This document shows, one piece after another, positions 949 through 20,600 of a stretch of 22,799 bases of DNA; positions within the stretch are counted from its first letter, which is position 1, and the number at the start of each line of letters is the position of its first letter. The DNA lies in the IMG/VR virus record IMGVR_UViG_3300050821_024075, positions 1-22,799 of that record, one strand, 5' to 3'. The notes beneath the pieces are model-generated. The model saw nothing but the letters and a program-made list of their open reading frames with translations, was not told the origin of the DNA and ran no database searches. The DNA comes from a virus. The translations under genes were made by a program, and so were the position numbers.

Positions 949-3172
949 CTAAGGCAAACCGCCCAGACTGATGTCGTAGCCGATCGGGGCGGTGATCGAC
1001 GCTAGGTCGGCCTGCGCGGTGACGCTGCTACTGACAGCGCCCCAATCCTGGTCGACACCCGAGGCAAGCGAGGCGATCACATCGACCGACATGCCGCCGG
1101 TGCCGAGCAGCGTGTAGCTGTAGGCCGTGACGGCGGCGAGGTCCTGCAAGGCCTGGCCGAAAATATTGAACCCCGGCAGCTTGAGATAAATCGTCTGGCC
1201 GACAAAGCTCGCCGGATAACCGTAGCGAAACAGCGACGGGTCGTTTGGTCCGAAACGCGCAAACGGCGCGCCGGCAACATGCGTCGCGATCGTCGTGCCA
1301 TAAGCGCCGCGCCGCAGATAGCTGAGGCCGTATTTATAGGCGGCGGTCAGCGTCGCGGTCTCGTAAGAGACCAGCTCGCCGCCGCAATAGCACAACGTGA
1401 CATAGGCGTCGGCATCGGCCTGGGTGCCCGACAAAAGCTGCCCCTGTGACTCGGTCAGGTCGACCGCCAGCGTGTCGCTCGTGTCGGGGTCGGCGGCGGC
1501 TGGCAGGCTCGCGGTCAGCACGCCCTGCCGCGCACCGCGATAGATCGTGCCGGCGAGCCCGTAATGATTGCCGTCGGTCGAAATCCACGCCTGGCAGCCG
1601 CCCCAATCGGCGCCGCCGGTGGCGATGATCCAGACCTCGACCGCGCCGCCGGTCAGCGCCGCGGGCGGCCCAAAGATGATCGGCGCGTTGGTGTTGCCGG
1701 GATCGACAAACGGGTCGAGCGGCGCGCCGGCCGTCGCCTGTTTCGGGTGCAGCACAGCCGTGCCGACGCCGATCGGCGTGATCGTCCCGGTCACGGTGTC
1801 ACCCCCGGGATTTCCTCGGCGGTGACGGTCAGCTCGCCGTTTTCGTTTTCGTCGATCTGGGTGATGCGCACCGGCGCGGCGTTGAGGCCCAGTGTCGTGT
1901 CGGTGATCAGCACGATGTCCATCGGCTCCAGCAGCGCGTATTTCCAGCCGAGCTTGAATTGATACGTGTTGCGGACATAAAGCCGCCGCTGGAGCATCAG
2001 CTGCGCCGAGATCGATGCGCTGGCCGGGTTGGTGAATTCGTGCGCCTGGATCGACGGCTCGGTGCGCAGCCCGTACTGGTCGACCGTGCCCTGGTCGAAC
2101 GCGGCGATGATTTGCGGGTTGTAGCTGTTGTCGGCGTCGAGATATTCGATCGAAAGCCAGTTGGTCGCTTGCGCCGGGTCGCTCCGCGTCAGCAGCACCG
2201 GATCGGTCGCCCCTGACCCACCACCTGAACTCCCATCGGCCGACCAGGGCAGGAAATCGCTGTCGGTCAGGCTGTATTGCCAAATGAGGTTTGGCGTCCA
2301 GCTCGCGCCGTTGGCCGACAACGCCTGATCCCCGTAAGGAATGATCTTGAGCAGCGTCCCCGACCATACGACAGCGGCGACGCTGAGCTCGGTCATCTCC
2401 TCGAGCCAGCGCGCCGCGGGCTGCTGCGAGTCGAGCAGCAGCGACATCGCCAGCTGCGCCGCCTGACAATAATTGCCCCAATCGGCGAGCGAACCCGAGA
2501 CATCGAGATTGGCCGCGGGAAACCCGGCGCCGTAGCGCGGGTTGGTCAGCAGATCGCCGACGATCAGGTCGGGGCGCGCGTCATTGGGATAGCCCGGCCC
2601 GGCGGTGCCTTGCTCGAAACCGGTGATCTCAAAGGAGATGTCCGGCAACGCCGAGGACGACCCCAGATTCATCGGCGTGCCGGTCACGTAGCAGATGCCG
2701 AATAGCCGATCACCGGCTGGTTCACGTCAGAGCTGGCAAAGACCGGGTCGGGCGATTGCCCGTCATTGCCGGCATAGCCATTAAGCCCGGCATTGCCGAG
2801 ACCGTTGGTGATGCCGCCATTGGCCCATATGCGGTTGTTGCCGCCAGTGCCCCAGCTCGACCCGGTAAAGCTCACCGGCCCCTGGCAGATGCCAAACGCG
2901 ACATCGACCGAGTATTGCTGGTTTGCGCCTTTCTTGCTGCCGCTGCTGCCCAGCCCCTTGCCGCCACCACTCGAACTGCTGCTGCTTCCCGAGCCTTGGA
3001 AATTCCAGAACTCGAGCAGATTCACCGAGACGCGCTGCGTCCCATAACAGATGAAAATCGGGCTGCCCGCTTGACTTGTATTGTACCGGAGCGACCCGAG
3101 CGTTGGGTTGTTGAACGCGTTGACAAAGGGCGTCGGGCCGCCGCCCTTCCCCGCCGGCGCAAGATCAAACAT
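949..3172 (-). pseudogene. Tail hub/baseplate protein (GTA gp15-like), broken by two frameshifts
   Basis: Three consecutive open frames join into one protein of about 740 residues. The first piece (3172 to about 2700) starts MFDLAPAGKGGG and holds a Ser/Gly-rich linker. The second (about 2698 to 1806) includes the DLIVGDLLTNPRYGAG stretch typical of phage tail hub proteins. The third (about 1802 to 949) ends in DISLGGLP. At 2698-2701 the frame is restored if one base is added to the G pair (giving YSGICYVTG). At 1802-1806 one G added to a run of five gives EIPGGDTVTG. The order after DUF2460, DUF2163 and NlpC/P60 matches the hub position in gene transfer agents and related siphophages. The start ATG overlaps the NlpC stop. 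Whether the breaks are real or sequencing errors cannot be told here. Confidence 0.8.
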
Positions 3173-5312: not shown

Positions 5313-5725
5313 TTAAAAACTGCGCGGGGTCAGGGCGTTCTGGCGAAATAGGTCACGGACCGCGCCAGCATTGTTCTTGAGGTTGTCGCGGAACCAGCGA
5401 TTGATCGACGGCGCGTCGGCGGGGCCGTGGAAATGCGCGTGAAAATGCGCATCGCCCGCGCCGCCGGCGATCATGCCTTGCAAGCCCTGCGAGATGTCGG
5501 CCGGCAGCACCATCTCGCGCGCATGGAGCAGCGCCGGGGTCGCGCCGGCAAAATTCGGCACGGCCCAGCCACCCGCCGCCGATGGCACGATGCCGCCGCC
5601 GCCAAAGCTGAAGAGCCCGCCAAGCCAGGAGAAGAACCCTCCTCCACCCGCAGCGGCGCCGGCGCTGGTGCTGTCCGCCGCCGTCGCGCCGGTCAGCGCC
5701 GCGGTGGTGCAGGCGAGCCAAGAAC
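5313..5725 (-). pseudogene. C-terminal remnant of the tape measure protein
   Basis: Only about the last 135 residues of a tape measure protein are present. They include the typical end of this family: a Gly-rich FFSWLGGLFSFGGGG, then GIVPSAAGGWAVPNFAG, LLHAREMVLPADISQGLQ, a His-rich HFHAHFHGP, and the closing RDLFRQNALTPRSF. Upstream of about 5725 the same frame is only the antisense-free shadow of the small secreted gene at 5693-6025, with no plausible start. Tape measure genes usually encode several hundred residues or more and lie between the tail chaperones and DUF2460. Here only about 330 bases separate those genes from the remnant, and they hold another gene. I infer a large internal deletion. 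Confidence 0.8.
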
Positions 5726-7897: not shown

Positions 7898-9280
7898 TTA
7901 AGGCGCGATCTGCTGCAGAAAAGCGTTTGGCTGCCGCGTGTTCGGCCAGATCGCCAGTCGGGCGATCGTGCCGTCCAGCTGATGTACGCCATTGCCATTG
8001 GCCCCAATGACGATGCGCGCTGGTGTGAACATCTCGGCCGTGCCGCCATAGGTATTAAGGGAACCGCTGTAGACGATCGCCTGGTCGTTGGTCTGCAAGG
8101 TGTAGGCGACCGGCCATTGCGTGTTCTGCGGCCAAACCCCTCCGCTGGGCGCGCCCCAGGCCGTGTTGTTCGAGGTGATGCCGCCGCTGAGTCGCCCCGA
8201 GCCGCTGCCGCGGTCGATATCGATCCGCTGCAGGTTGTCGCCCTCGTCGATCTGCAACGGCGTCTGCGTCGTGCCATAGCTCGTCGGCAGCTCCGGGGTC
8301 GCCAGCACATAGGCGGTGACCGCCTGGCCAAATGCCGGCGACGGTGATGAAATCAGCCTGACGCGTCACCGCCGCACCGTTGGTGTAGATAAGGCTCGTC
8401 GCGCCCTGGCCTTGTTCGAGCTGAGCGGGGCCAAAGCGGAATGTGACGTTGATCGTTTGCGCTCCCGTCCATGCACAACTGAGGAAGTGGTTGACGTAGG
8501 CGGTCGATGCGTTGTTGAGCGTTTGGGCTCCTTGCACGCGGCCCAACCCCAAGGTCGTCGCGGTGGGCATGCTCATCGCCGTTCCGAGCTGCGTCAGAAA
8601 CGATCCGCTCGAATTATAGATGTCGATAAAATACGTGCAGCCCGATAGCGTCGATGCGGAGCCGGCGCTCACGCGCCAAAACCAACTGCCCGTCCAGATC
8701 TGACCATTCGACGCGGCGATCGCGGTGTTGTTCGTGTTGAAATTGATGTTGAAACTGCCCGAACTGGCCACGTTGCCCGCAAGATTGAGATCGAAATACG
8801 GCAGCCCGTTCTCCGTCCCCGTCCCTGCCACCGAGATCACCAAACCGCCCGATTGCGAGTAGCTCCAACCCGTCGGCATCGAGCCCGGCGAACCCGCCAC
8901 CGCGCCGGCCATTTCGTTATAGGGCTGACCGTTGGTGCGACTTTCCTCGACGAGCAGCCCCTGATTGGTGACGCGCGGCTGACCGTTGGGGAACGAGATG
9001 ACGTTGCCGGCGCTGTCCTGTGCGGTGCCGGCCAGGCACGGACCACGTTGAGGCAGGTCGCTGCCGCACGGCAGCCGCTCTTTCCTCCCCAATACCGGCC
9101 TTGGACGAAATTGAGGTCGAGCGCCGCGCCCGGCAGCACCCAACCCTGTGCGCCCAGTTGATCCCGTTGCCTGAGCCGATCAGCATTTGCGTTGCCGATG
9201 ATGAGGATAGCCAGGGCCAAGCCGCCGATTAGCCGCGACCCGGCCCCTAGGGCGAATTTTCCGCGCATCGGGCTACTCAT
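7898..9280 (-). pseudogene. Secreted fibre-like protein with LamG-like end, broken by two frameshifts
   Basis: Three frames join into a protein of about 460 residues. The first piece (from ATG 9280, or ATG 9268) starts with a signal peptide ending IIGNANA, then ALDLNFVQGRYWGG. The second holds GNVISFPNGQPRVTNQGLLVEESRTN, a segment common in phage fibre or head-spike proteins, followed by a beta-rich domain with WSYSQSGG and FNINFNTNN. The third ends with LDGTIARLAIWPNTRQ, like the end of a LamG/concanavalin domain. The first break (about 9030-9036) is repaired by one added base (giving RASAGTAQD). The second (about 8333-8341) needs one base removed or two added. The start overlaps the stop of the preceding fibre-like gene. 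Confidence 0.72.
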
Positions 9281-10013
9281 CGCGATCGGTGGATACCAGC
9301 AGCGTCTCGACCTCGCCGGAAAGCGGCGTATACCCGCCCGAACCCGTCTCGACGAGCGCATATAGATAGGTCGCGCCGGCGAGCGCCTTGAACGGCAGCG
9401 CCGGGATCATCGCGTTGTTGCTTGAGCAGGGCGAGAACCACTGCGCGGTGCCGTCATTGGTCTTCTGCCATGACGCGCAGGTAAGCGTCCCGATGTAAGA
9501 ACCGCCGGTGACATCCGCCGCGTAAGGGCCGACATAGGCCGACTGATCCTTGAGGCTCGCGACCGTGATCCCCGAGTTCGAGAACAGGTGCCAATACTGC
9601 GTCGGCGGCGCCGAAGAGCCGGTATAGCTGGTCTCGGCAAACGCCGCGGTAAGCTTGCCGGTGCCGGCATTGGTGCCAGTGACGGTAATCTGCGTCGGCG
9701 TGACATTGCCGCTCGTGTTGTTGGCGATCAGCTGCGAGCCGGTATAGGCGGTCGTATTAGCCGGCCGCGTCACCGCGCCCGAGCCGTTGATAGTGGCCAG
9801 CGTGTTGATCGTCACCGTGCCACCAACCGGGAGCGGCAATACAGCGCTGGGCGGCACCGTGCCGCCGCTGCCGTTCGGAATGACGAGCTCCGCCGGCGGC
9901 GAGAGCGCGCCCGGTTGCAATGCTTGAAACGGGCCCTGACTGTTGTCGGCGTTCGCCGGCGCGGCCAGCGCGAGCAGCAGCGGGACCGCTAGGCCGAAAT
10001 ATTTTGGATTCAT
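9273..10013 (-). CDS. Secreted fibre-like protein with signal peptide
   Basis: A 246-residue protein. I chose the ATG at 10013 because AAGGA lies 8 bases upstream and because translation then starts with a clear Sec signal peptide (MNPKYFGLAVPLLLALAAPANA). The mature part is Gly-, Ser- and Thr-rich and beta-like (TINGSGAVTRPANTTAYT, then LIANNTSGNVTPTQITV), as in phage fibre or decoration proteins. The C-terminus has a YLYALVETGSGGYTPLSG segment. Its function is unknown. It sits between the tail terminator and a second secreted fibre-like gene, which starts inside its stop region. A signal peptide is unusual for a virion structural protein, so it may be a cargo gene acting in the envelope. 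Confidence 0.7.
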   Translation of the reverse strand: MNPKYFGLAVPLLLALAAPANADNSQGPFQALQPGALSPPAELVIPNGSGGTVPPSAVLPLPVGGTVTINTLATINGSGAVTRPANTTAYTGSQLIANNTSGNVTPTQITVTGTNAGTGKLTAAFAETSYTGSSAPPTQYWHLFSNSGITVASLKDQSAYVGPYAADVTGGSYIGTLTCASWQKTNDGTAQWFSPCSSNNAMIPALPFKALAGATYLYALVETGSGGYTPLSGEVETLLVSTDRDE

Positions 10014-10047
10014 CGAATGGTCCTTGGGATGGTGGCGTTTTCTCGTT

Positions 10048-10152
10048 GTCATTCCCGCGAAAGCGGGAACCCATGGACACAGGCCTCCTGGAGCCTGGCT
10101 CCGCCCGTGCTCATGGTTCCGAGTTCAGCCTTTCAGGCCGCCCCGGAATGAC
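10048..10152. repeat. Composite palindromic intergenic repeat, copy 3
   Basis: It starts GTCATTCCCGC-GAAA-GCGGGAA and ends CCCCGGAATGAC, like 835-939 and 4544-4649, but the second hairpin stem has diverged (TTCCGAGTTCAGCC against GGCCGCCCCGGAA). It contains an extra small palindrome (GGCCTCCTGGAGCC region). It lies between the tail terminator and the secreted fibre-like gene. Confidence 0.8.
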
Positions 10153-11833: not shown

Positions 11834-13323
11834 TCAACCGTTGCCGATATTGGTGATGACGCCCATCGCAAACGGCGCGTAGACCGCGAACACCTCTTCG
11901 GCGTAGACCCCGACCTGGCGCTGGCGGGTCACGATCGGCCAGTCGATCTGGTAGTAGTCCTGCCGCGTCTTGACCTCGGCGACATTCGGCACTTCGTTCG
12001 ACTGGTACTGCACCGGCAAATTCTCGGCCCAGCCGATGATCGTGCCGGGCGGTACCTTCGGGTGGATGCGGATCGGAATGCGCAGACCGCCATTGAGCGC
12101 ATACGGGTTGAAGTAGAACGACACCGCGCCCGCCGCCGCGAGGTCATAGGGGTTGCCGTCGTCATTCACATTGTAACGCAACAGCGGCGACGAAGCGTTC
12201 GACAGCACCTTGGCGGTGATGTTCTTCAGCTCCTGCACGTTGACATAAAGCACGGTCGGCGAGAGCTGGTAGTTGTTCCACATCGTCTGGAACATCGTGT
12301 CGATCTCGACCACCGAGCCGCGCCCCGACGAGGTGAGCGGCGTGCCGGTGCCGGCGGTGCCCGTCGCCTGCGTCGCGACATAGGCGTTCGACCCGCTCTT
12401 GAATGCGCTCGTCAGCAGCCCGTCATAGGCGTAATTCGGATTGGCCGAATTGTCGGCGGTGATCGCGGTCTGCGCCTGCTGACCGCTGGTGACCGGCGCC
12501 GAGAAGGCGGCGCTGTTGACCGTGGTGATCGCCTGCAACGTTTCGGCGCCGGTCGCGGTGCCGACATACCAGGCATAGGCGACCGCACCGGCGAGCGGCG
12601 TGACGGTCGCCGACAAGGTCTGACCCGATGTCACCGCCTGGCTCGTCTCGGCGCTGACGTTGGACGACCCGCCGGAGAGCGTATAGGTGGCGCCGTCGGC
12701 GCCGGTGATGGTCTTTGTCGCGGCGACACCGCCCGATACGCTCGAATTCTGGTAGCCTTCGAGTGTCAGACCGACAACCTTCACGTAATAGGTTGCGGCC
12801 GGCAGCGTCGCGCCGCTACCCGCGGCCGACAGCACCGGTGTCGCCGGCACGCCAGTTGCAGCGAGGCGTTGCCGCCGAGGATCGCCATCTCCTCCTTCAG
12901 CATCATCTTCTGCAGCAGGCGGAAGGTCATGCGCGCCTGGATGTCTTCAAAGTCGCGGCCGGCACTGATCGCCTCGTAGGTCGCCGCGTCCTCCTCGCCG
13001 ATCGTGACAAACGTCGCCGATTTCGTGGCCGTCTGGTACGACATCTGCGCCGAGCGCTGGCCTTCCGGTACCCAGCCCATCGCGTCAAAGCCGGAGCCGA
13101 CCAGCGCGCTCACCTGCCGCCAATGCGTCGCGGTGCCAGTGCCGCCACCGACACGCGGGATAACATTCCGGATCGGTGTGACAAACGGATAGAGGTTTTT
13201 CGCCGGCGCCTGCAAATCGAACGCAACCAGGCCGGTGCCGGTGTTGATCGTCTTGGCGATCTGGTCGCTGGGCGAGCGCAGCGCGCCCTTGACCAGATCG
13301 AGCGTGTCTAGTGTCGGGTTCAT
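11834..13323 (-). pseudogene. Major capsid protein with Ig-like insert, one frameshift
   Basis: Two frames join at about 12850-12853 into a protein of about 496 residues. One added G (giving ASLQLGVPATP) restores the frame. The first part (residues about 1-155) includes NLYPFVTPIRNVIPRVGG, GWVPEGQRSAQMSY and FLLQ-like helices (MTFRLLQKMMLKEEMAILGGN), consistent with an HK97-fold capsid of the kind that follows a protease. Then comes a Ser/Thr/Gly-rich stretch of about 125 residues that looks like two Ig/FN3-type beta modules (TYYVKVVGLTLEGYQNSS, AYAWYVGTATG). The last third returns to capsid-like sequence and ends VFAVYAPFAMGVITNIGNG. GGAGGG lies 11 bases before the ATG. Confidence 0.82.
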
Positions 13324-13401: not shown

Positions 13402-14133
13402 TTAGATCAGGCGTGGGTCATTGAAATCTTCTCGGCGAAACTCCAGCGACTGGCGCGGACTTTCGCACCATGCCCGGATCAGTTGTGCCCCGGGCATGAT
13501 GTGCCAGGTTTGCTCTCGCCGCGGCCGACGCTCGGCAAAAGCCGACGGCGACAATATCGCGCAATTCATTCCCCCACGCCGATCGCGCACCGACGCGTAA
13601 CGAATGGCATCAACACCCCCTGCCCTCGCCGCATCCGCCAAATCCTGACATCCCGCATAATCGACAGGCTGTCCCCAGATCTCCGCATCGCGGTCGAGCG
13701 GCGCTTTGCAGAGGTTCAGCGCCAGCAAAAATCGACAGCGAACGGAAAACACGGTGTGCTCGACTGCCGAGGATGGAAGTTTCACCCCCGGTGCTTCCGC
13801 AAAAAACAAAAGTCGATAAAAGCTCGTTTCCGCGACGGCGGTTTGCGGCATCTCCGAACAATAGAATACCCCCTCCCGCTGACCAGCTCTTCGAAACCGA
13901 GAGCCATGAGGATAGGGCGCGTATCGGAAGGGCGTTGCCAGCAGATAGTGCAACTTCTCGCATTCCGCCGGCAGGCGTGGCTTGCTGCGCTCCAGTATCG
14001 CTTCGAGCAACTCTTGCTCGTCGAGCGTGTCGGTTAATCGCATCGTCGACGCTTTTGCCTGAGACTCGACAGCACGCCACAAATCGGCATTCCACGCGTG
14101 GGCTTCAGAGCGGAGCGCGTCGGGAGTCCACAT
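13402..14133 (-). CDS. RES-domain toxin of a toxin-antitoxin pair
   Basis: A 243-residue protein with the RES fold pattern: an Arg-rich segment at 70-82 (FRYAPYPHGSRFRRAG), then GVFYCSEMPQTAVAETSFYR with the key Glu near 102, and the ILSPSAF motif with the key Ser near 195. RES toxins (for example MbcT) consume NAD+, stopping growth. The ATG lies inside the end of the antitoxin gene (29-base overlap), the usual order of the Xre-RES family with antitoxin first. The terminator at 13351-13373 closes the cassette. Intact frame. The cassette sits between head genes. Confidence 0.9.
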   Translation of the reverse strand: MWTPDALRSEAHAWNADLWRAVESQAKASTMRLTDTLDEQELLEAILERSKPRLPAECEKLHYLLATPFRYAPYPHGSRFRRAGQREGVFYCSEMPQTAVAETSFYRLLFFAEAPGVKLPSSAVEHTVFSVRCRFLLALNLCKAPLDRDAEIWGQPVDYAGCQDLADAARAGGVDAIRYASVRDRRGGMNCAILSPSAFAERRPRREQTWHIMPGAQLIRAWCESPRQSLEFRREDFNDPRLI

Positions 14134-14515
14134 ATCGCAGCGCTTCCACCAAACCGGGGACGGTCTGTATCAGATCAAGCGGTCTATCGCCGAGAGCGGT
14201 GTTAGGCGTTCTCATCCAAGACTTGAGTGTGTCGTCGTCACTGCCCACGATCGAATCGAGACTACGGAAAAGCCGCACAAATAACTGTGCCAATTCAAAC
14301 GTTTTTGTTTCGGGTGAGATGACATAATCGCCGCTCCGCAACCGCGACGCCGACGCTTCCGACAGGCCGATGGTACGCGCCACAACCTTGTTGGACAGAC
14401 CAAGAAATCCGGCGGCCCGAATGACGGCCTTGCTCAGTATCATGCCTTCTCGCTCGGCTCCCGGAATGGCCGAGGTCCTTGACGCTCGCGTCGCGGTCTG
14501 CATTCGATCCTTCAT
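14105..14515 (-). CDS. Xre/MbcA-type antitoxin for the RES toxin
   Basis: A protein of about 136 residues. The N-terminal part holds a helix-turn-helix (AAGFLGLSNKVVARTIGLSE, then ASRLRSGDYVI). The C-terminal half is the toxin-binding type (LFRSLDSIVGSDDDTLKSWM, then NTALGDRPLDLIQTVPGLVEAL, as in DUF2384 antitoxins), which plugs the toxin's active site. The ATG at 14515 is 8 bases from a -10-like TATATC, so the message may be nearly leaderless. The internal ATG at 14503 has AAGGA close upstream and is an alternative. I reject the longer frame to 14611 because it would run through the promoter and into the upstream gene. Confidence 0.85.
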   Translation of the reverse strand: MKDRMQTATRASRTSAIPGAEREGMILSKAVIRAAGFLGLSNKVVARTIGLSEASASRLRSGDYVISPETKTFELAQLFVRLFRSLDSIVGSDDDTLKSWMRTPNTALGDRPLDLIQTVPGLVEALRYVDSRRAPL

Positions 14516-14518
14516 AAC

Positions 14519-14542
14519 GCAAGATATAGCCAGTTTTCTTGC
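14519..14542 (-). promoter_or_regulatory. Antitoxin promoter with candidate autoregulatory operator
   Basis: GCAAGA and TCTTGC form a 6-bp inverted repeat with 12 bases between the arms. The -10-like TATATC (minus strand, 14523-14528) overlaps one arm. No strong -35 is visible; CTTTCA lies about 17 bases upstream. Such a palindrome at the start of an Xre antitoxin gene usually binds the antitoxin for self-repression. Confidence 0.55.
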
Positions 14543-14588
14543 ATATGAAAGATACGATGAGTGACCGGTTTCGTCAATCGACCATCGG

Positions 14589-15329
14589 CTAAGCGCGCGG
14601 GCGTGAGCCAAACGGCCTTATCGGGTCGGCATGCGCGGCTTTGATGAGGGTCAGGGTGCGGTCCTCGTCGCTCATGCGGGCCAGCGTGGCGACAACGTCG
14701 TCGGGCGAGGCCCCGGGATAGGCGCTGTCTTCGCGCTTGGTGAGGCTGGCGGTCGCGCGCGCCATGGTCTGCGGCGGCAACGGCGTCGCCTCCAGCTCGG
14801 CGACGCGTTTGGCGAGCGCATCGAGCCGCGGCAGGATTTCGCTGGCAAACGCTTTCATCAGGTCACCGCCCCGTGCCGCTTTGTCGGTGTCGCCCTCGGC
14901 GCCGGCTTCGTGGGCTTCTGGGACAAACCCTTCGCATTTGGCGCCGGCGCGGCACAGCGCGTCGTGCGCCTCTTTGAGATGGCCGAGCAACACCCGCCCA
15001 TGCCGCCCGGCCGCACTGGGCTTGCAGCAATCGCCATCGGTCATCGCCTTGAGGCAATCGTGGACATGGTCGAGCGAAGCCTGGTTGGCGATCGCGTTTG
15101 ACGCCGGCCCAGTGGCGGCAGGCGGCCCGGCTGGGTCGATCTTGTCCTTCCACGCGGCGACGATGCGGTCCCGGATCTGCTGCAGCTCACCTGCGGTGTA
15201 GGGCGCCGTGTTGCTCGCCATATGGACAAAGGCCCAGGCGGCGCGGATATGCCGCTCGGTATCGAGCGGGTAGCGCTTTTTGCCGTCGGCCTGAAAGCCG
15301 GGATCGGCGTGGTCGATGTCCTCCGCCAT
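14589..15329 (-). CDS. DUF6582-like protein between protease and capsid, possible scaffold
   Basis: A 246-residue protein. Residues about 15-65 (KKRYPLDTERHIRAAWAFVH, then YTAGELQQIRDRIVAAW) look like the DUF6582 module common in phage and mobile-element proteins. The centre holds a Cys/His-rich part (DHVHDCLKAMTDGDCCKPS, HDALCRAGAKCEGF). A later helix (LMKAFASEILPRLDALAKRVAELE) suggests a coiled coil. Its place between prohead protease and capsid fits a scaffold. GGGGAG lies 8 bases before the ATG at 15329, just after the protease stop. The frame is intact. The scaffold role is inference. Confidence 0.75.
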   Translation of the reverse strand: MAEDIDHADPGFQADGKKRYPLDTERHIRAAWAFVHMASNTAPYTAGELQQIRDRIVAAWKDKIDPAGPPAATGPASNAIANQASLDHVHDCLKAMTDGDCCKPSAAGRHGRVLLGHLKEAHDALCRAGAKCEGFVPEAHEAGAEGDTDKAARGGDLMKAFASEILPRLDALAKRVAELEATPLPPQTMARATASLTKREDSAYPGASPDDVVATLARMSDEDRTLTLIKAAHADPIRPFGSRPRA

Positions 15330-15773: not shown

Positions 15774-15778
15774 GCGGA

Positions 15779-16880
15779 TCACCGTGTTGTTGAAGAGGAA
15801 GCACCAAGCGGCACCGCGCCTTGGGCGCCGTAGATCATCGGCTGGTCGCCACCGAAGACGGGGTCGAGGCCCAGCAGCCCCCGCGCCTCGTTGATCGCGT
15901 AGATGCCGTCGCGCACATAAATATCGATGATTTTGGCCTGCTCGGCGGGGTCGGCCGGCCGCAGATCGCCCCAGGCGAATTCGAGGTCGGGGTGACCCAT
16001 CAGATCCTGGATCACGTGGTCGCAGAGCCGCTTGACCCACAGCATCAGCGGCGCGAGACCCTCGGTCGCTGCAGTGTCCTGCGAGGTTTCCGCGGTCGCC
16101 CGGTTCACCTGCTTGGTGAAGGCGGTCGGCGGCAGCGAAACGCGTAGCAGACGATCCGCGCCAGCCATTCGTCGAAATCGTCCTTGTAGGGCGCTTCCTT
16201 GAACGCCTGGTATTTTGACCCCGACGGCCCCCACACCAGCCGCGTGCGCGACCCGGTGTTTCCCGCCAAGACGCTGTCGAACCATTCCTGGAACAGCGAA
16301 ATCTGCTCGACATTCCAGCCATCCGGCGCGTTGAGCAGCCCCGGCGGCACGTTGCCGTCGGTAAAATGCTGCAGCTGCATTACCTGGCGGCGCAGCGCGA
16401 TGTTGACCGTCATCACGATCTGCTCAACCGGGCTAAAACCGTAAGCCTTGTGCGGGCGCGGATTGTGCGGCCAATAAAGCAGCTCGTCGCTGGTCAGCAG
16501 CTTCCATGGCCTGCCCTTGATCACCTGCTCATAGGCCGGCGCCGGCGGGCGCGGACGGCGGCCGGTCTCGTCGGCCAGCACCTTGATCGTCGCGCCGTCG
16601 ACAATGTCGAGCCCGATCAGCGCGCCACCGCGGTTGCGCCGGAGTTCGAGCACCGGCGCGTCGAGCACCAGCAAATCTTCCATCAGCTCGCGCAGCCAGG
16701 TCGCGAACGGCCGCTCGCCGTCGGGCCGGCGCCAGAACTCCGCCACTGCCTGGACGCGCCCCGCGGCATGCGGCTGCCGCGGCTTGTCGCCGATCACCCG
16801 GATCGCCCAGTCGAGCCGTTCGAGCTGGTCCTTGCGCGTCTCGATCGCGAGCCGGGTGATGTCGTGCGCGTCGGCGATCG
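15779..16880 (-). pseudogene. Portal protein, N-terminus missing and one frameshift
   Basis: About 367 residues of a portal protein are readable. They begin abruptly at ADAHDITRLAIETRKDQLERLDW, a segment normally found roughly 100 residues into portal proteins of this type. Later landmarks are LLTSDELLYWPHNPRPHKAYG, SPVEQIVMTVNIALRRQ, SLPPTAFTKQVNRATAETSQ, and AINEARGLLGLDPVFGGDQP. At 16138-16140 one extra T on the coding strand restores AFSLPPTAF. The 5' side is joined in frame to the beta-helix gene. The protein would form the ring through which DNA is packaged, but without its N-terminal domain it is unlikely to work. The stop overlaps the protease GTG. Confidence 0.85.
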
Positions 16881-18654
16881 CATTGCCATTGTCAGCGACC
16901 GTGGCCGCATAGGCGCTCCCCGAGGGGAAACTCCACCGGCTGATCCCACCGATCCCCGCCACACCAAGTTGCTGCGCGGTGGCCGGCGTCATCTGCTCGA
17001 CGCGGAAATCGCCCGAACCGTCATATTGCAGCGTCACATATTCGTACTGATTCCCGGCGAGGGTCAGCGAGCTCTGCCCGGAGGTATTGACCAGCGGGTA
17101 AAGGATGTGCCCGCCGCTCGTGCCGTTGACCTGCACCTTGAGGCTCTTGCCCTGATCGGTCGCGAACCCCATCGACCAGCCAGACGGCAATCCCGTGGTT
17201 GGGGGCAATGTCACCGTCAGTCCGGCCGAGCTGTTGAAGCTCGACACGACGTTCCCATTGTCACCAAGTTGCGCGGCATAACCCGATGTTGACGGGTAGA
17301 GCCAATTACCTGGCCAATCACGGCTTTGCAGCCCGTTGGTGGCGAGCGTGTTTCGCGTGCCGGTGACAACGCGGAAATTGTTGCCATCCGATTGCAGCTC
17401 GAGATACTCGTAATTGCCCGGGCCGAGCGTCACCGATGACAGCGCCTTCCCACCCGACACAATCGAGCCGGATGGCGCGGTCACGGTCATGCCTTTGCCG
17501 TTATCGGTCGCGAAACCCATCCGCCAGCCGGCGTTAACCGCGTTCGGCGCCGGCAATGTCACCGCCAGCGAAGCGCCTGGCGCGTTGTAGGACGAGATCG
17601 CCGTGCCATCATCGATGCCGCTCGCCGTGTAGCTCGTGGTACTGGGAAACTGCCACACCGCCCAACTTCCCGTGCCGACCACTTGCACGCCCGTCGATTG
17701 CGGCCCGCGATTGGTGACGGCACCGGCATAGGTCGGGTTGATCAGCAGGTTGCGGGTGCTCGCGGTGGCATTGACCGCGGTCGCGCAGTTGAAATAGGGC
17801 GAGACAAAGCTGTTCTGGCCGTCATGGCTCGTGGTGATCGACAGGCAGGTCGGCGCCACCTCGAAATCAAAGCCAAAGACCGTGTTGGAAAAATCGTAGC
17901 CATTCCCCAGCAGCATCGCCGCACCGCCGGTCCCAGCCGCCGATCCGGCGCCGGAAATCCGCGAGAATTGCGTCTGTTCGAGCGCGATCCCCGCCGCGCC
18001 ACCGGCGCTGTCGGCGACCGCATAAATATCGCTGTCGAGCACATAATTGAGCTGCAGCCCGCCCGCCGCCGAGCTCGTGTTAGCGTTGTTGACGACCAAA
18101 TGATCGATCTTGATCGAATTATGCGCGTCGGAGAAATCGCTCTTGCCGATCACCACCGCGTAACCGGACGCGTTGGCCCGCACAAAGAGCGCACCCTCTT
18201 CCTTGAAATAAAAGCAGCCCGTCGGGCTTCCGGTCGTGCCGCCGGAGCATTCGACTTGCAGCACCGGCCCGGAGGCGATGCCAGTGCCGTCGAGCGTCGC
18301 GCCTTCCGAGACCAGCCGGAACCCGTTCCCCGCCTGGCCGGCATAGTCGATCACGAGACCGCTTGTCACCTTGTAGGTCCCGGCCGGGATATGCACCGGC
18401 CAGTTATTGGTGATCGCGGTGGTGATCGTCACCTGGATCGCGCTGGTGTCGTCGTGCGTGTCGTCTCCGGTCGCGCCGTTACAGCGCACATCAATCCACG
18501 GCTGCCCGCCGCAAGCCAGCACGGTGCCGCCGAGCGTCGCCGTACCGGTCGTCGACAGCGTCGAGAAATTGCCCGGCGATTGCGCCAACGCGGCCGACAC
18601 CACCAGCCCGCAAGCGGCGAATGCCGCCAGCGCAAGGACGCGGTCAATGAACAT
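16881..18654 (-). CDS. Secreted beta-helix/tail-spike-like protein, C-terminus lost by fusion to portal
   Basis: About 591 residues are present. The ATG at 18654 starts a Sec signal peptide (MFIDRVLALAAFAACGLVVS, ending AALAQ). Residues about 45-330 resemble right-handed beta-helix/pectate-lyase-like spikes: WIDVRCNGATGDDTHDDTSA, IPAGTYKVTSGL, then irregular repeated strands with Asn and Gly. Then come two homologous modules of about 110 residues, each with DxGxxxSSxN, LTVTLP, GWxMGFATDxGK and an EYxxLQ pattern, and the start of a third that stops after DNGNAI, where portal sequence begins in frame. A host-surface or polysaccharide target is inferred. No ribosome site is visible before the ATG. 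The repeat at 18662-18776 lies directly upstream. Confidence 0.8.
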
Positions 18655-18661
18655 TTGACGT

Positions 18662-18776
18662 TGCGTCCTTCGAGGCCTCGCTGACGCGAGGCGCCTCAGG
18701 ATGAGGATTTTTCTTAATGCCATCCGCAAACCGTCCTCATCCTGAGGTGCGACCGGAGGGAGCCTCGAAGGACGCA
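18662..18776. repeat. Palindromic intergenic repeat, fourth type
   Basis: The outer arms TGCGTCCTTCGAGGC and GCCTCGAAGGACGCA match perfectly over 15 bp. Inner CTCAGGATGAGGA and TCCTCATCCTGAG form a second pair. The motif with CTTCGAG and CTCAGGATGAGG is a familiar intergenic repeat in Bradyrhizobium-like genomes. It lies between the 146-aa gene and the beta-helix gene. Confidence 0.9.
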
Positions 18777-18807
18777 CCGCGCTCGTGCAGCGCGCGCGGC
18801 CCAAACG

Positions 18808-19248
18808 TCACCACCGCCGCGCGGCGAAGACCTGGCCGGTCGTCGCGCCATAAAGGCTGACCGCGCCGGCCGGCTTGTATCCCGAGGGCGTCGCGAACAG
18901 CCCGCCATTGGCCGCGAGCTGGATGCTGGCGCCGCCGTTCGAGGCGATCCCGGTGTCGCAGATCCACAAGGCAGCTGACGAATTGTTCCGCACCAGAAAG
19001 CCGTTCACCGGCACCGTGCCGCCGAACAGCGTCTGCGGGCTACCGCCCGTCGCGACCGACCCGCTGCCATCGCTCGCGACGGCGCCGGCGGTGTTGATCA
19101 CCGGCAACGGGTTGGTCGGCCCAACCGGGTTCGCGACCCCCGCCACAACCGAGGCCGGCGCATGCACCGGCACGAGGTTGCCGCCGCCATCCGTCTCGGT
19201 AGACAACGACTGGATCGTGGTGTTTGCGTCTTTGACGAGCAGCGTCAT
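18808..19248 (-). CDS. Phage protein of unknown function (146 aa)
   Basis: The ATG overlaps the terL stop (ATGA), so it is coupled to terL. The protein is small, neutral and beta-rich: an N-terminal MTLLVKDANTTIQSLST, a middle LFGGTVPVNGFLVRNNSSAALWI, and a C-terminal GLFATPSGYKPAGAVSLYGA. This resembles small surface or accessory proteins in alphaproteobacterial phages. It lies between terminase and the portal region, so a role in head assembly or decoration is possible but unproven. I do not recognise a named family. Confidence 0.65.
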   Translation of the reverse strand: MTLLVKDANTTIQSLSTETDGGGNLVPVHAPASVVAGVANPVGPTNPLPVINTAGAVASDGSGSVATGGSPQTLFGGTVPVNGFLVRNNSSAALWICDTGIASNGGASIQLAANGGLFATPSGYKPAGAVSLYGATTGQVFAARRW

Positions 19249-20600
19249 GGCGCCTTTTGCTCCTGTTGGTCATGTCCCGTTTGCGCGAGGCGGCGATACG
19301 CCTCGAAAATCCCTTCGCCGGCGACCGGCGCGACCAGCAATTCGGTCAGCGCCCAGACCAGCGCGTCGACCCGGTCGGGCGAATACCCGGCTGTGTCGCG
19401 GTCGAAATCATGCGCGAAGCAACACATCTGGTCTTCGAGCCGCGCCAGCGCGCCGAGATGATGCACCCGGCTTTGCTCGTAGAGCGCGGCGACCGGCTCG
19501 GCCCGCGCGACCTTGCCGCGTGAGGCGCGCACCGCGGTGAAAGCGACGCTCGGATCGACCATGCGGATCGTCGCCTCGACCATCTCACCGCCGTTGTTCA
19601 CTTCGGCGACGACGCGGTCGGCGCCGTGCGTCCGATAGGCAGCTATCGCCGCCCTCGCCCATTCGGTCGGCGTGTAGCGGCCCGACAGATCGGCGAGCAC
19701 ATAGCCGTGCCCGCCGGCATCCTTGCCGGCGATGACGATGCCGGTCTCGTCCGAATGCTCGCCCGAACCCGCGGCCGGATCGATCGCCACGACGATCCGT
19801 GTCAGCTGCGGCACGCTGGAGACTCGCGCCGCGTCGATCATGCCGTGACCCCACAGCGCACCCGGCACGTCTTCGAGGATTTCGGCGTCGAGCTCCTGCC
19901 GTCCGAGCCGCGTGCCCTCGTAACTCCGCACGATCTGTTCGAGAAAGCCCGGCGCCAGATTGTGCTTGTTGTCGTAGGTCGTGCCGTGTGTGACGACGAC
20001 CTTCGCGTCGGCGACCAGCGCCTTGATCAGCTTGGTCGGGCGCGGCGTGGTGGTGACCACGGCGCGCGGGTCGTCGCCGAGCCGCAGCCCGAACATCAGC
20101 ATGTCCCAGGCCTCGGGATAGCGCCACGCCGCCAGCTCGTCGCACCAGGCGAAATCGTGTTGCGGCCCCCGCAGCCGTTCCGGTTCGTCCGCGGAATAGG
20201 TCGTCGCGATCGCGCCATTCGGCCAGGTCAGCCGCCGCTTCGACGGCTCGTAAATCGGCCGCTGCTTGCGGGTCGCGACCGCCAGCAACCCGCTTTCACC
20301 TTCGATCATCACATCGCGGGCATCGGCCGCGGTCGGCGCCACCAGCGCGATATGCCGCGCCCGATGTGCCGAAACCTGCCGCCGCACGAACTCGGCCCCG
20401 GTCCGCGTCTTGCCAAACCCGCGCCCCGCGAGCAGCAGCCAAACCCGCCAGTCGCCTTCCGGCGGCTGCTGGGTGTCACGCCCTTTGAGCGGCCAATCGT
20501 GGTCGAGCGTGTAGAGGACCCGCCGGGGAAGGCTATTGAGGAGCCTTATCCTCGTCGCGCTCGGCAGCGAGGCGAGCCAGCCAGCGAGCAAGCTCCTCAC
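19245..20600 (-). CDS. terL: Terminase large subunit
   Basis: A 451-residue packaging motor. The ATPase part has Walker A GRGFGKT at about 60-66, Walker B (HDFAWCDE) at about 149-155, and the TTTPRPTKLIKAL coupling segment near 184-195. The nuclease part has a first Asp near 274 (VVAIDPAAGSGEHSDETG) and a late DALVWALTEL. It cuts concatemers and drives DNA into proheads with TerS and portal. The order and type match GTA-like siphophages. The start ATG at 20600 lies inside the end of terS (about 68-base overlap). The N-terminal LASLPSATRIRLLNSL resembles the opening of relatives, supporting this start. Intact. Confidence 0.95.
   Translation of the reverse strand: MRSLLAGWLASLPSATRIRLLNSLPRRVLYTLDHDWPLKGRDTQQPPEGDWRVWLLLAGRGFGKTRTGAEFVRRQVSAHRARHIALVAPTAADARDVMIEGESGLLAVATRKQRPIYEPSKRRLTWPNGAIATTYSADEPERLRGPQHDFAWCDELAAWRYPEAWDMLMFGLRLGDDPRAVVTTTPRPTKLIKALVADAKVVVTHGTTYDNKHNLAPGFLEQIVRSYEGTRLGRQELDAEILEDVPGALWGHGMIDAARVSSVPQLTRIVVAIDPAAGSGEHSDETGIVIAGKDAGGHGYVLADLSGRYTPTEWARAAIAAYRTHGADRVVAEVNNGGEMVEATIRMVDPSVAFTAVRASRGKVARAEPVAALYEQSRVHHLGALARLEDQMCCFAHDFDRDTAGYSPDRVDALVWALTELLVAPVAGEGIFEAYRRLAQTGHDQQEQKAP

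Follow-up and report, generated by a model that had tools for sequence, protein, structure and literature searches.

An in-frame beta-helix/portal fusion in a phage contig is very probably a deletion joint in a broken sequence and not a gene

Portal proteins of the HK97 type (PF04860, PHROG 2662) have to form a ring in the cytoplasm, and the right-handed beta-helix of the pectate-lyase type (PF12708) is the fold of phage tailspikes. Cryptic prophages and broken phage contigs from metagenomes present neighbouring genes fused by deletion and frameshifted portal, capsid, protease and tail genes, with the repressor and the toxin-antitoxin cargo kept; kilobase deletions are commoner in real prophage decay than in base-calling error. 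The window analysed here, the whole 22,799 bases of an IMG/VR record analysed as contig sequence, shares these features of cryptic prophages and broken contigs, among them a single reading frame in which the beginning of a beta-helix protein is joined to an HK97-type portal protein. We propose that this fused frame is very probably a non-functional deletion joint, located in a broken contig, and not a gene (Table 1).

Table 1. Coordinates in the window of the fused frame, its upstream neighbours and the other breaks of the contig.
Feature	Coordinates	Strand	Evidence
Intact terminase large subunit	19245..20600	-	PF03237, PF17289
Intact gene of 146 aa preceding the beta-helix gene, position as in relatives	18808..19248	-	87.7% identity in L037 and L090
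REP-like palindrome (nested inverted repeat) located after the 146-aa gene and before the beta-helix gene	18659..18779		L037 has the motif at the matching place
Truncated beta-helix gene: signal-peptide-like N-terminus, beta-helix, two modules and start of the third	16876..18654	-	ORF, PF12708, homologues, tailspike-like matches
In-frame joint GCGATC/GCC	16873..16881	-	Alignment to native junction DNA, 10 portals and 8 beta-helix genes
Portal part read in the fused frame, 84-92 N-terminal residues absent	16139..16875	-	97% aa identity to the L003 portal; alignments
One-base deletion near 16138, after which the fusion ORF ends out of frame at 16105	16105..16142	-	50/50 covering comparisons; alignment
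Remaining portal in a different frame; final codons SSTTR-stop within the conserved protease leader	15779..16138	-	PF04860, PHROG 2662; leader compared with relatives
Probable second deletion joint, between the portal core and the protease start	15775..15805	-	35 nt in the window, 169-2965 nt in relatives
Prohead protease gene carrying one-base indels at two sites: ~15572, G5 to G4; ~15388, C4 to C5	14589..15775	-	Comparison and alignment with relatives
Major capsid gene, one base deleted at ~12853	12845..12862	-	34/39 covering loci; alignment
Deletion joint in the tape-measure gene	5659..5712	-	Last ~108 of 409-490 residues left
One-base deletion in the tail-tip gene, ~2696, TTCGG for TTCCGG	2690..2702	-	Three relatives

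The fused frame runs on the minus strand from an ATG at 18654 to a stop at 16105, as established from the list of open reading frames and their translations, and stays open for 849 codons, in frame over the joint. Its residues 1-593 comprise a signal-peptide-like start, a pectate-lyase-type beta-helix, two repeat modules and the beginning of a third one, in which, after DNGNAI, the frame switches to the portal sequence ADAHDITRLAIETR, from 16875 onwards. Pfam profiles recognize both halves: PF12708 matches residues 53-104 at the beta-helix start with 33.3 bits (cut-off 27), and PF04860 matches residues 636-840 in the portal core with 49.7 bits (cut-off 39.1), the portal part being matched by PHROG 2662 as well. 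The translation and these matches agree with a preliminary description of the locus, which had read the same succession of parts. The frame had been said to continue to 15779, however, and it does not reach that position: one base is absent near 16138, where the window reads GCGTTTCGC while relatives have TTTTCG or TTCTCG (50 out of 50 comparisons covering the site), and the remainder of the portal, from 16138 to 15779, is in another frame. The window therefore has no complete, uninterrupted portal reading frame, since N-terminal loss and frameshift coincide in it, and of the two fused parts the portal is frameshifted about 240 codons past the joint; in relatives, by contrast, the portal N-terminus is intact.

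The joint falls at 16876/16875. Native portals read CGGCTCGCC at this point and native beta-helix genes continue with GCGATCTC, so that the native neighbours share at most two bases (TC); the GCGATC bases at the joint, earlier regarded as possible microhomology, are rejected on that account. Counted up to the portal sequence that follows the joint, the loss with respect to intact close relatives is that given in Table 1; a missing N-terminus had been anticipated correctly, though its size had been put at roughly 100 residues. On the other side of the joint, alignment with intact homologues reveals that about 258 C-terminal residues of the beta-helix protein are absent, in accord with the proposal that the third module is cut off, and the repeat noticed just upstream of the gene corresponds to the nested inverted repeat. 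In terms of coordinates, the sequence missing over the beta-helix/portal boundary amounts to about 1.30 kb when compared with L085, 1.17 kb with L037 and 1.03 kb with L005.

About 140 related loci were gathered by scanning IMG/VR with each half of the fusion and the GTDB genomes with the portal half. A beta-helix gene separates terminase from portal in 56 of the 79 contigs having both, usually together with the 146-aa gene. Terminase directly adjoins portal in most of the other contigs, whose portals are mostly more distant, and the beta-helix gene is hence an inserted cassette. The native order in this clade, which consists of temperate alphaproteobacterial phages, runs terminase, 146-aa gene, secreted beta-helix gene, portal and protease; no arrangement of terminase, beta-helix and portal of this kind appeared in the titles or abstracts of the literature searched. 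In the 56 contigs, L028 excepted, beta-helix and portal are separate genes and the portal is normally intact, the beta-helix stop being placed usually 173-521 nt ahead of the portal ADAHD codon. L028 is the only relative with both in one frame, and was rejected as a second independent fusion: a small frameshift close to the beta-helix end reads through the spacer, and the portal N-terminus is complete. In a few other relatives the beta-helix gene is broken by a frameshift or stop of its own. The nearest contig, L003, with about 90% DNA identity, begins within the beta-helix C-terminus, and the beta-helix part kept in the window therefore lies outside it; searches with portal, beta-helix and terminase yielded no near-identical contig of the same phage closer than L003. 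A chimera of two different phages was also considered; though possible, it finds no support for two parents, both halves being nearest to the same contig group.

Beta-helix and portal being normal neighbours, a fact that the preliminary description had missed, one deletion of about 1.0-1.3 kb accounts for the fusion. This single event would have taken away the 3' part of the beta-helix gene together with the spacer and the beginning of the portal, and the leftover parts would have remained in frame by chance, with a likelihood of one in three. The fusion was found in one genome: neither the exact joint sequence nor a degenerate pattern of the fused sequence was present in any other IMG/VR contig (0 in both searches), while a pattern of the same type made from the native portal start, used as positive control, was found in 14.

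The fusion is one among several breaks, which had likewise been overlooked. One-base indels occur at five sites, in portal, protease (two), capsid and tail-tip genes, mostly within short base runs, and the tape-measure gene lacks about 1.27 and 1.4 kb with respect to two gene-matched relatives having the same neighbours. The portal/protease junction is rated as no more than a probable third deletion joint, because the gap varies naturally. This gap (15775-15811 in the window) is hypervariable in relatives, from 169 to 2965 nt, and C-terminal extensions are frequent in the portals there.

Across five conserved genes, 3 frameshifts in 2037 compared codons were counted for the window versus 15 in 279,700 for the relatives, a density about 27-fold higher, where the relatives' count is approximate, overlapping loci of one contig having been counted repeatedly, and the second protease indel falls outside the compared stretch. 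The compared genes of the window contain no in-frame stops, whereas in the relatives' contigs stops are about as frequent as frameshifts. Polarised substitutions gave nonsynonymous to synonymous ratios of 21:46 for the window and 27:47 for L003, with no nonsynonymous excess and no visible relaxation of selection. Thus neither of the marks of a long-decayed prophage, relaxed selection or nonsense mutations, was found.

Taking into account that: (i) the portal N-terminus is gone; (ii) the product would carry a signal peptide, and (iii) the frame shifts within the portal part, we infer that the fused product cannot act as a portal, and consider it very unlikely that a secreted portal is at work here. 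The pattern is compatible with a technical error and with an inactivation of very recent date, and accordingly two of the three options raised in the preliminary description, false join and inactivating deletion, both survive. Between these two origins of the deletion joint we lean to the technical one, since the frameshifts are accompanied by neither a nonsense codon nor relaxed selection. Error-prone or low-coverage sequencing, an assembly error or a chimeric read in a metagenome assembly would have generated the joint and the other breaks, both genes being intact in the real phage. The excess of frameshifts over the relatives, the confinement of the one-base indels mostly to short base runs and the absence of the joint from other contigs all argue for such an origin, which we consider somewhat better than even. 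It has to accommodate two or three separate deletions, two of them of about 1 kb, which are unusual in base-calling error, and a joint at which just about 2 nt are shared; this is unlike a k-mer misassembly, so that the joint would call for a chimeric read or a true deletion.

The other origin, which we hold to be the less probable of the two but still a serious candidate, is a real deletion in a very recently dead or defective prophage, where the same decay would have struck the tape-measure N-terminus and introduced the small indels. True deletions require little shared sequence, several structural genes have been hit by deletions, and the presence of a repressor (S24 peptidase) and of a RES-Xre toxin-antitoxin pair is consistent with a resident prophage. 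Against this origin, the compared genes have no in-frame stops, although in the relatives' contigs stops arise about as often as frameshifts, and no nonsynonymous excess is seen. The window differs in this respect from cryptic prophages, and the decay is, if real, very recent. The third option, a functional or domesticated fusion in which a secreted beta-helix has gained a portal fragment as a new domain, could appeal to the long open frame that crosses the joint in phase but is dismissed as highly improbable, given the frame break with its out-of-frame tail, the lack of any relative in IMG/VR with the joint, the many other broken genes of the contig and the established assembly of HK97-type portals as a cytoplasmic ring. 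No better chances are given to a real phage population having a domesticated exported beta-helix/portal-fragment protein, with the 16138 frameshift as a sequencing error.

Apart from the deletion joint, the beta-helix gene is an ordinary tailspike-like cargo gene. Its homologues range from 729 to 975 aa, the complete ones being mostly of 850-860 or 912-915 aa, and in most complete ones the N-terminus is hydrophobic and closes with what is, judged by eye, a typical AxA-Q site. The length of the protein varies among contigs, L181, L037 and L111 included (729, 850-860 and 912-915 aa), and repeat modules may have been gained or lost. Profiles of the tail and tailspike families PHROG 17312, 2234 and 7458 match the intact homologues. 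The intact L085 homologue, modelled with moderate confidence (pLDDT 73.5, pTM 0.43), resembles tailspikes, adhesins and epimerases by both fold and profile; its fold matches include the K2-2, Phi92 and Sf6 tailspikes as well as the AlgE4 epimerase, and TM-scores across the whole chain are low. No relatives of the protein were found in cultured phage records. From these predictions, the protein is probably an exported, polysaccharide-directed cargo protein. It resembles phage tailspikes in its family matches and, at low TM-scores, in its predicted fold, but differs from them in its signal-peptide-like N-terminus and in the location of its gene, between terminase and portal and not among the tail genes.

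Other genes of the window, all on the minus strand, deserve mention. A RES-domain toxin and an Xre/MbcA/ParS antitoxin (PF08808, PF09722, PF20432) are encoded at 13402-14611, between the protease and major capsid genes, and neither was matched in the other loci compared. A second protein with a signal-peptide-like start, at 9273-10052, lies between tail-terminator-like and tail-tube-like genes; it has relatives in L086, L011 and L039 and no family match in profile searches. The tail-tip protein (949-2481) matches PF23666, the Rcc01698-like C-terminal family, known from gene transfer agents, and the tail module therefore looks GTA-like. PADLOC gave no matches in the window.

The fused sequence should not enter databases as a secreted portal. 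When a striking fusion is met in a phage contig, frameshifts and missing segments should first be counted contig-wide against relatives. What the locus does offer is a modest new cargo gene, a tailspike-like gene with a signal peptide that sits, as an insertion, between the terminase and portal genes of one phage clade, represented by the 56 contigs, and missing from more distant ones.
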